Origin: Omnitrophica WOR_2 bacterium RIFCSPHIGHO2_02_FULL_48_11
Lineage (GTDB): Bacteria; Omnitrophota; Gorgyraeia; Zapsychrales; GWA2-47-8
Reading direction: 5' to 3'
Assembly: GCA_001805615.1 (NCBI GenBank)
Contig: MHGP01000041.1
Span: forward strand, 1-40,975
Length of the DNA stretch: 40,975 nt
Shown here: one piece after another, positions 38,447 to 40,020 of the stretch
How positions within the stretch are numbered: position 1 is the stretch's first letter
Layout: every line of letters begins with the position of its first letter
Notes under the pieces: generated by a model
Databases searched by the model: none
Told to the model about the DNA's origin: nothing
What the model saw: only the letters and a program-made list of their open reading frames with translations
Program-made: the position numbers and the translations under genes

Positions 38447-38845
38447 TTACGGGGTTAAAACACCACCCGTGGACATCGTAAACGTTGTCGTGCCGGTAGT
38501 CCCAACAGTCGCCGGTGTGGCGATGAAGGTATAACCACCCGTACCCACCGTACAAGTATAGTTAAACCCAGAAGTTGGGATAGCAAGACATGGGTTGCTA
38601 TTAATATACGGTGGCGTAGCACCAGTCGTCAACGATGTCATGTCACCCGGATAATTACCGTTATTAGAAGTAGCAAACGTCTCCGAGGCCGTTGATAATG
38701 ATCTTAAAGAACCTTTGGCTAAAGCATCGTTGGCTGAAATCTTTGCTCTCAGCAAGTTAGGAATTGCGATCGCAGCCAAAAGAGCAATAATAGCCACAAC
38801 GATCATAATTTCAACTAATGTAAAACCACGATTTCCTTTTTTCAT
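38447..38845 (-). CDS. Type IV pilin, second copy (riboswitch-preceded)
   Basis: This is a 132-residue major-pilin-like protein. The leader MKKGNRG would be cut by prepilin peptidase before FTLVEIMIVVAIIALLAAIA (Glu5 kept), then IPNLLRAKISANDALAKG. The mature chain of about 125 residues has a short globular domain with two cysteines (NPCLAIP and YTCTVG) that could form the D-region disulphide. It ends GTTTFTMSTGGVLTP. It is clearly paralogous to the gene at 39253-39645, sharing ASETFAT..NNGNYP and GYTFIATP blocks. AAGGAGG lies about 8 nt before the ATG. Upstream are a promoter, a c-di-GMP-I riboswitch, a terminator, and a second promoter. Confidence 0.92.
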   Translation of the reverse strand: MKKGNRGFTLVEIMIVVAIIALLAAIAIPNLLRAKISANDALAKGSLRSLSTASETFATSNNGNYPGDMTSLTTGATPPYINSNPCLAIPTSGFNYTCTVGTGGYTFIATPATVGTTGTTTFTMSTGGVLTP

Positions 38846-38868: not shown

Positions 38869-38931
38869 TTATTCAGCCAATACGCCAAACCTATTTTCCA
38901 GAAGATGTCGAATAACGAAGGATGATACCAT
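38869..38931 (-). CDS. Possible 20-codon leader ORF before the second pilin
   Basis: On the pilin leader an ATG at 38931 opens a frame of 20 codons, MVSSFVIRHLLENRFGVLAE, ending 23 nt before the pilin start. The ribosome site is weak (AAGAGA). It occupies the same position as the better-formed leader ORF of the other pilin, but the peptide sequences are not alike. It may be chance. Confidence 0.2.
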   Translation of the reverse strand: MVSSFVIRHLLENRFGVLAE

Positions 38932-38997
38932 TTTTTCTCTTATCGACTGGCAACAAGTTTGTAACCTATTGGCCTTGACCAAATTGCAACAATTTTT

Positions 38998-39025
38998 ATT
39001 GTAACATGACACTTTCTGTTGTCAA
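38998..39025 (-). promoter_or_regulatory. Second promoter (P2) of pilin copy 2, after the riboswitch terminator
   Basis: Minus-strand TTGACA (39020-39025), a 16-nt spacer, then TACAAT (38998-39003). The -35 is about 10 nt beyond the U-tract of the riboswitch terminator. Transcription from here would bypass the riboswitch and give a leader of roughly 140 nt. Confidence 0.7.
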
Positions 39026-39035
39026 CGTGTTTCCA

Positions 39036-39068
39036 ATAAAAAAACCTATTCTTCATTCGAAGAATAGG
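39036..39068 (-). terminator. Intrinsic terminator of the c-di-GMP riboswitch, pilin copy 2
   Basis: Minus-strand CCTATTCTTC pairs with GAAGAATAGG (10 bp, loop GAAT), followed by seven T's. The stem is identical to that of the other cassette. It starts 8 nt after the aptamer P1 helix, the position of an expression platform. Confidence 0.88.
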
Positions 39069-39076
39069 CTATATCG

Positions 39077-39180
39077 TCACTTTTACCTTGGCAACTGGCA
39101 ATCCTCGCGTAATTCTAATTGTGCGAGGACCCTATAGCTTTGTGTCCCATCCTTACGAATGGTTTACCTTTATCAAGTGA
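39077..39180 (-). ncRNA. c-di-GMP-I (GEMM-I) riboswitch before pilin copy 2
   Basis: The aptamer is read on the minus strand. P1 is TCACTT (39175-39180) with AAGTGA (39077-39082). Then comes AAAGGTAAACC, and P2 CCATTC-GTAA-GGATGG with a GNRA loop. The hallmark GGGACACAAAGC follows, then P3 TCCTCGC with GCGAGGA, and TTGCCAGTTGCC as the receptor/closing side. Aligned to the V. cholerae Vc2 aptamer, the base at position 20 is G, which favours c-di-GMP over cGAMP. A terminator follows, then a second promoter and the pilin gene. Confidence 0.9.
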
Positions 39181-39208: not shown

Positions 39209-39237
39209 AGCATACAATGCAACTCTATCGCTGTCAA
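39209..39237 (-). promoter_or_regulatory. Promoter (P1) of the riboswitch, pilin copy 2
   Basis: Minus-strand TTGACA (39232-39237), a 17-nt spacer, then TATGCT (39209-39214). Start of transcription would be about 20-25 nt before the aptamer. It lies directly after the stop of the upstream pilin gene, so the second cassette has its own input. Confidence 0.78.
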
Positions 39238-39252: not shown

Positions 39253-39645
39253 TCAAGGAGTCCAAATTCCTCCCGTGCTCAAAGTAACAGTTGTAGTCCC
39301 CGTTCTCCCTACAATATCTGGCGTCGCAATGAATGTATATCCCGCAGCCACCATTGTACATGTATAAGTAAAACCTGATATCGAGTTACTGCAAGGATCA
39401 TTTATAATGATATAGGGAGGGACAGCCCCAGTTAAAGCTGTTATGTCCATAGGATAACCGGCATTATTGTTGGCATATGTTTCTGATGCCACAGCTAATG
39501 TCTTTAACGTCGCTCTTGCTAAAGTATCGTTAGCTGAAGCCTTTGCCCTTAATAAACCCGGGATGGCGATAGCAGCTAAAAGCGCGATGACTGCCACCAC
39601 AATCATTATTTCAACAAGCGTGAACCCGCGACTACTGCTTCGCAT
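39253..39645 (-). CDS. Type IV pilin, first copy (riboswitch-preceded)
   Basis: This is a 130-residue pilin. The leader MRSSSRG precedes FTLVEIMIVVAVIALLAAIA with Glu5, then IPGLLRAKASANDTLARATL. The globular part has two cysteines (NDPCSNS, YTCTMV) and ends TGTTTVTLSTGGIWTP. It is a paralogue of the 38447-38845 gene, with the same helix, cysteine pair and C-terminal GYTFIATP block, but changed loop residues, so the two may be alternative major subunits. GGGAGG lies about 8 nt before the ATG. The upstream region holds a c-di-GMP-I riboswitch and a 19-codon leader ORF. Confidence 0.92.
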   Translation of the reverse strand: MRSSSRGFTLVEIMIVVAVIALLAAIAIPGLLRAKASANDTLARATLKTLAVASETYANNNAGYPMDITALTGAVPPYIIINDPCSNSISGFTYTCTMVAAGYTFIATPDIVGRTGTTTVTLSTGGIWTP

Positions 39646-39728: not shown

Positions 39729-39793
39729 GGTATTGCTCCTCTTTTTTCCACTGGACTGATGACCGTACTGGCTTGAACCATCAAATTTATTTT

Positions 39794-39822
39794 ATCTTAA
39801 CAATCCCCTGTTCCCTTGTCAA
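39794..39822 (-). promoter_or_regulatory. Second promoter (P2) of pilin copy 1, after the riboswitch terminator
   Basis: Minus-strand TTGACA (39817-39822), a 17-nt spacer, then TAAGAT (39794-39799). The -35 begins about 10 nt after the terminator U-tract, the same distance as in the other cassette. Confidence 0.65.
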
Positions 39823-39832
39823 TGAACGTTAA

Positions 39833-39865
39833 ATAAAAAAACCTATTCTTCACTTGAAGAATAGG
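39833..39865 (-). terminator. Intrinsic terminator of the c-di-GMP riboswitch, pilin copy 1
   Basis: CCTATTCTTC pairs with GAAGAATAGG (10 bp, loop AAGT), then seven T's. The loop and flanking stem bases can also pair with the 5' strand of the aptamer P1 helix (10 nt, 39848-39857 with 39981-39990), a possible antiterminator. Confidence 0.88.
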
Positions 39866-39881
39866 TCATTTTCATTCCCTA

Positions 39882-39988
39882 TCACCTGGAGCAGCTGGCA
39901 ACCCCCCGCTCTTGCATTCTGCAAGAATGCGCGGGGGCCCTGTAGCTTTGTGTCCCATCCTTACGGATAGTTTACCTTGATCAAGTGA
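39882..39988 (-). ncRNA. c-di-GMP-I (GEMM-I) riboswitch before pilin copy 1
   Basis: P1 is TCACTT (39983-39988) with AGGTGA (39882-39887), containing one G-U. Then comes CAAGGTAAAC, P2 CTATCC-GTAA-GGATGG with a GNRA loop, and the hallmark GGGACACAAAGC. P3 is CCCCCGC with GCGGGGG, carrying an extra inner hairpin (GCATTC/GAATGC), and GGTTGCCAGCTG closes the structure. The Vc2 position-20 equivalent is G, so c-di-GMP is the expected ligand. P3 is longer and P1 weaker than in the other copy, which may change affinity or switching. Confidence 0.9.
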
Positions 39989-40020
39989 AGGTGCTCGGAG
40001 AAACTCCACTCCTTATAATA

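Follow-up and report, generated by a model that had tools for sequence, protein, structure and literature searches.

We propose that two neighbouring pilin leaders in a Candidatus Omnitrophota genome are class-I c-di-GMP riboswitches that would switch transcription OFF through strand exchange. At low ligand, the newly made 5′ arm and loop of the terminator would pair back onto a strand of the aptamer and hold up terminator formation, and when c-di-GMP is bound, P1 and P2 would be held and the terminator would be free to form. The contested helix would be P2 in the second leader (copy 2) and in most Omnitrophota leaders with a detectable partner, where its 3′ strand, its GNRA loop and sometimes its 5′ strand would be engaged; in the first leader (copy 1) a four-base change of the loop from GAAU to AAGU would have made the P1 5′ strand the partner. 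To the OFF sign together with this assignment of P2 and P1 we give a probability of roughly 55%; for copy 1 taken alone the same reading is tentative, at somewhat less than an even chance. The analysis is computational throughout, and the complementarities, their statistics and the predicted transient pairing reported below are its direct results.

Materials and Methods

Leaders were compared in two sets. The order set started from 160 aptamers, 129 of them with a hairpin and U tract, and 93 were kept after requiring the hairpin to lie 0–50 bases past the aptamer with an energy of −9 or lower, removing one identical terminator, and removing by hand two misparsed leaders (L190 and L049). Three leaders (L202, L225 and L226) were lost because the parser skipped a nearer CCUAUUC hairpin, and the set still holds relatives, for example the near-identical genomes G079 and G080. 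The held-out set was fetched after the order set from other orders and classes and consists of top-scoring listed aptamers rather than a random draw; from 88 aptamers, one of which had no core, 79 had a hairpin and 56 were kept without de-duplication, so that L299 and L302 have the same P2 and terminator. Folding by transcript length covered 10 leaders, mostly picked as strong pairers. A sigma70-like site was defined by at least 10 of 12 consensus matches; among the 15 leaders listed for the promoter comparison, L106 could not be scored, since the pilin matched to it lies upstream of its aptamer, and for L120 no terminator was parsed. Position 20 was placed in both aptamer copies with the help of the Vc2 sequence. 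The numbering also follows the contact lists in PMC7288161 and PMC6274999.

Results

The copy-1 leader consists of a class-I c-di-GMP aptamer (RF01051; 39894–39986, minus strand), a separate intrinsic terminator (39840–39867, minus strand) and a pilin-like gene with an N_methyl motif (39253–39645, minus strand). The covariance-model score of the aptamer, 40.5 bits, clears the RF01051 cut-off of 35 and is the lowest of the seven Rfam matches in the host genome, among which this aptamer is the most divergent; alignment with the homologous copy on contig C16 (the C16 copy) puts its true 3′ end about 10 bases beyond the Rfam end. The terminator has a 12-pair stem, the loop AAGT and a T-rich tail; it begins 26 bases past the Rfam aptamer end and has no strand in common with the aptamer. 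The same unit is repeated 0.8 kb downstream as copy 2, with a higher-scoring aptamer (39086–39177, minus strand; 63.2 bits with RF03167, cut-off 59, and 61.8 with RF01051), a terminator of the same stem but with the loop GAAT (39043–39070, minus strand), which begins 16 bases past the Rfam end and likewise shares no strand with the aptamer, and a pilin-like gene (38447–38845, minus strand). PilM, PilN-like, PilO and secretin genes also lie within the window (the whole stretch of DNA analysed, 40,975 nucleotides), and the closest relatives of the pilins are almost all from Candidatus Omnitrophota.

Position 20 is G in both copies (AGGUAAAC, the G before P2), which marks them as the c-di-GMP and not the cGAMP type. 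A cGAMP aptamer (GEMM-Ib, A20) had first been suspected and was dropped when the contact lists moved the numbering by one and G20 was found in both copies. The host genome has six GGDEF matches and thus the kind of domain that makes c-di-GMP, which we predict from sequence to be the ligand of both copies.

According to the original prediction, the P1 5′ strand of copy 1 with its flank is perfectly complementary over ten bases to the terminator loop region, and this is borne out: both strings are found on the minus strand, the former at 39981–39990 (CTTCACTTGA) and its predicted partner at 39848–39857 (TCAAGTGAAG). Loop region is the right term, since the latter segment spans two bases of the 5′ arm, the loop and four bases of the 3′ arm. 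The regular P1 partner is indeed weaker, as the homologous P1 3′ strand AGGUGAUAGG needs a G-U pair, a bulged U and an extra CC. The P1-5′:loop duplex has an energy of −13.1 kcal/mol (p = 0.001, 1000 shuffles).

Folding of the copy-1 leader, which had been named as a check, agrees with the prediction, in that the P1-5′:terminator pairing prevails with a probability of 0.91–0.98 at 157–163 exposed bases and the free terminator wins from 165 bases, which leaves P1 pairing a window of about eight bases near the decision point. At 161 bases the constrained energies are −59.8 for P1:terminator, −57.2 for the partial terminator and −52.2 for P2:terminator. The P2 3′ strand of copy 1 (39954–39962, minus strand; AAGGATGGG) is able to pair with the terminator 5′ arm CCTATTCTT (39857–39865), at p = 0.06 in the shuffle test of P2 against the terminator and at a cost of 7.6 kcal/mol relative to the P1 pairing at 159–163 bases. 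A composite of the P2-3′ and P1-5′ pairings with the terminator was rejected, being 7.6 kcal/mol worse than P1:terminator alone. At full length the terminator wins in both copies, and the antiterminator must therefore be kinetic; these folding numbers do not by themselves show switching, because ViennaRNA knows no ligand, no tertiary contacts and no polymerase.

Since the P1:loop pairing is predicted to dominate before the 3′ arm of the terminator is complete, the sign of the switch would be OFF. We regard the opposite arrangement, an ON switch in which the ligand prevents the terminator, as very improbable: the pilM-type c-GAMP switches are ON (PMC9262584, partial text), and leaders of the same family (L002, L006 and L015) build their terminators with the aptamer 3′ end, but the terminators of copies 1 and 2 stand 26 and 16 bases past the Rfam aptamer end and take no strand from it. 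As a separate observation, four class-I leaders (L002, L006, L015 and L029) have pilM-like terminators built with the aptamer 3′ strand, so that a single genome may contain switches of opposite sign.

Among the 149 Omnitrophota leaders of this layout, only copy 1 has more than 7 perfect P1:terminator pairs. As a class, P1:loop pairing reaches p < 0.05 in 3/93 leaders of the order set and 3/56 of the held-out set, which is the chance level, and own terminators pair with P1 no better than those of other leaders (permutation p = 0.76); a single leader at p = 0.001 among the 149 examined is not very surprising. The complement is absent from the paralogous copy 2, from the C16 copy and from L017, a leader of the same family. 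The AAGU loop of copy 1 looks derived, because the loop is GAAU in copy 2 and the C16 copy and L017 lacks the complement as well. For the original OFF-switch proposal, the predicted dominance of the P1:loop pairing before the 3′ arm is complete, the aptamer identity, G20 and the non-overlapping terminator all speak in its favor, and an OFF switch in copy 1 is plausible as a private, derived variant in the light of the folding model. What does not stand is P1:loop pairing as a general mechanism, for copy 2, the C16 copy and L017 do without it, and the lineage-wide antiterminator partner of the terminator 5′ arm and loop is P2.

In copy 2 the P2 hairpin (39145–39161, minus strand; CATTCGTAAGGATGGGA) is the predicted partner of positions 39055–39069 of the terminator (−15.7 kcal/mol, p = 0.001), with a pairing probability of 0.90 when the 5′ arm and loop are out and the 3′ arm is incomplete, and GAAU ranks first of 256 loops for P2 pairing. 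Across Omnitrophota, pairing of the terminator 5′ arm and loop with P2, where it engages the 3′ strand, the GNRA loop and sometimes the 5′ strand, is seen at p < 0.05 in 41/93 leaders of the order set and 29/56 of the held-out set, 70/149 in total. A nominal 5% would understate the baseline for these counts, because 23/157 unrelated terminators reach p < 0.05 with a random P2; measured against that control the excess remains (Fisher 6e-10), and among leaders whose terminator overlaps the aptamer only 1/36 reaches p < 0.05 (Fisher 8e-8). When each distinct P2 3′ end is represented by a single leader, 28/65 are still at p < 0.05. Own terminators pair better than other terminators, with 6/5000 permutations reaching the observed value in family f7 and 7/5000 among pilin loci; the within-family permutation also holds in f1, is weak in f6 (409/5000) and gives no signal in f3, where P2 pairing is found in 0/8 leaders. 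The strongest pairers are L214, L153, L197 and L016 (−22.9 to −24.4 kcal/mol), and L301 is also strong. In the length-by-length folding, P2 pairing reaches 0.81–1.0 in L197, L153, L214, L016, L061 and L069, which were picked as strong pairers, 0.83–0.84 in L017 and only 0.18 in L003.

The motif CCUAU starts the 5′ arm in 52/149 riboswitch terminators versus 3/157 others, which is what a match to the conserved, purine-rich P2 end would lead one to expect. An anchored ungapped test of P2 did not separate own from other terminators (442/5000 permutations reach the value), and the contingency between GNRA loop and terminator was absent from the order set but gave p = 4e-4 in the held-out set and 0.02 when pooled. 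Pairing of P3 with the terminator stays at the empirical baseline (13/93 and 9/56), and the P3 5′ strand CUAUAGGG was rejected as an antiterminator partner of CCUAU, own terminators having no advantage over those of other leaders (p = 0.89). With its spacer, the P1 3′ strand (A) is near chance as a terminator partner (4/93 and 5/56 leaders), and A against T5 gives p = 0.28 in copy 1 and p = 0.65 in copy 2. Class-I aptamers of viral contigs, eight in all, were too few; of the six tested none reached p < 0.05, the best being 0.09.

The aptamer of copy 1 looks degenerate in sequence. In alignment with the C16 copy, J1/3 appears changed from GCC to GCU (it reads AGCU-GCU) and P1 bulged, Rfam instead aligning an upstream GCC; copy 2 has the J1/3 GCC and a regular P1. 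With the bottom score of the seven Rfam matches, the absence of P1:loop enrichment across leaders and the promoter arrangement described below, these changes could mean that copy 1 is a decaying riboswitch in which the ten-base complement is a coincidence of drift, the terminator is constitutive and pilin 1 is expressed from the downstream promoter. We take this seriously and yet rather doubt it: AAGU comes top of all 256 loops for P1 pairing, the longest perfect P1:terminator complement is 10 in copy 1, with none of the other 148 Omnitrophota leaders exceeding 7, and the terminator hairpin is wholly intact. In copy 1, P3 has as its apical part (39910–39930, minus strand) a palindrome with four sites in the genome, one of them with a mismatch; the further sites are G000 C16:15564-15584, C52:6075-6095 and C54:5108-5128, and other genomes of the order have related matches too, so P3 of the aptamer seems to have received a REP-like element. 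The C16 copy is itself an eighth class-I aptamer of the genome that Rfam missed (L344, G000:C16:15200-16590); a hairpin-rich stretch of about 80 bases splits it between P2 and P3, and it retains a terminator with the loop GAAU.

Consensus matching found no promoter-like site ahead of the copy-1 aptamer. A near-consensus sigma70-like promoter (TTGACA-17-TAAGAT; 39794–39822, minus strand) lies between terminator 1 and pilin 1, another (TTGACA-17-TATGCT; 39209–39237, minus strand) lies ahead of aptamer 2, and a third, again near-consensus (TTGACA-16-TACAAT; 38998–39025, minus strand), between terminator 2 and pilin 2. Such a site is present ahead of the aptamer in 10 of the 15 leaders listed, copy 2 included, and between terminator and pilin in 9 of them, including both copies in the window. 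An upstream promoter might then make a short terminated riboswitch RNA while the pilin is transcribed from the post-terminator promoter, the ligand altering read-through or the short RNA and not the pilin directly; we find this unlikely, as the sites are consensus matches only and a second promoter is compatible with regulated read-through. Past the second promoter, the pilin 5′ regions (about 39740–39790 and 38900–38990, minus strand) have a loose motif in common (CAAGCCAGT / GGCCAATAGGTT..CCAGT), also present in L017, which is possibly another RNA element.

We favor regulated read-through by strand exchange; the ligand response, the direction of the switch and any change in the amount of pilin are inferred. 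Given the sigma70-like site past the terminator, less read-through would not necessarily lower pilin. The prediction that c-di-GMP lowers read-through to pilin 1 accordingly stands in part: the predicted OFF sign agrees with it, and the divergent aptamer, the lack of a promoter-like site upstream and the sigma70-like promoter after the terminator weigh against it.

Discussion

Class-I c-di-GMP riboswitches are present in 338/384 Omnitrophota genomes searched. We suggest, at just short of even odds, that in this group the 5′ arm and loop of the terminator form a mimic that invades P2 and the GNRA loop, the element that keeps the aptamer together by docking, and that the target is movable from P2 to P1 by a four-base loop change, as the two neighbouring pilin leaders would illustrate. 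Should P2 be the helix that switches, the picture in which P1 decides would fail for the whole lineage, and the adjacent paralogues would be a natural four-base swap experiment. If true, these pilin leaders would also be turned down by c-di-GMP, the reverse of what the class II pilA1 switch does in Clostridioides difficile (PMC6366702, partial text).

Our literature search, which included the available parts of PMC9262584, PMC8835794, PMC11218506, PMC6366702 and PMC10907184, did not turn up a P2-invading antiterminator described for the c-di-GMP-I class, nor any literature naming Omnitrophota or Omnitrophica together with riboswitches; both are weak evidence of absence, the subscription literature being thinly covered. 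OFF switches of class I are already known (PMC6366702, in part), as is strand exchange into an inner aptamer helix, in the ZTP riboswitch (PMC10907184, in part).

The Cd1 class-I riboswitch of C. difficile is a transcriptional OFF switch in which the ligand leads to termination (PMC9262584 and PMC6366702, parts of both), and the leaders described here resemble it in having a separate terminator able to coexist with the folded aptamer, a competing antiterminator and the predicted OFF sign. Both Cd1 and the pilM switch rely on P1 strands, the Cd1 antiterminator being formed with the 3′ strand of P1 (A; PMC9262584); the recurrent partner here is instead P2, and in copy 1 the P1 5′ strand. The pilM c-GAMP riboswitch of Geobacter metallireducens, an ON switch, belongs to the same aptamer superfamily and likewise lies upstream of pilus genes (PMC9262584, in part), but its terminator contains the aptamer 3′ strand, which those of both copies do not, and aptamers of the cGAMP type have A at position 20 where both copies have G. 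Closest in principle is the ZTP riboswitch, in which a strand of the expression platform invades an inner aptamer helix unless the ligand holds that helix (available text of PMC10907184); there the invader builds the terminator and the switch is ON, whereas here, in another aptamer class, invasion would prevent the terminator and the switch would be OFF.
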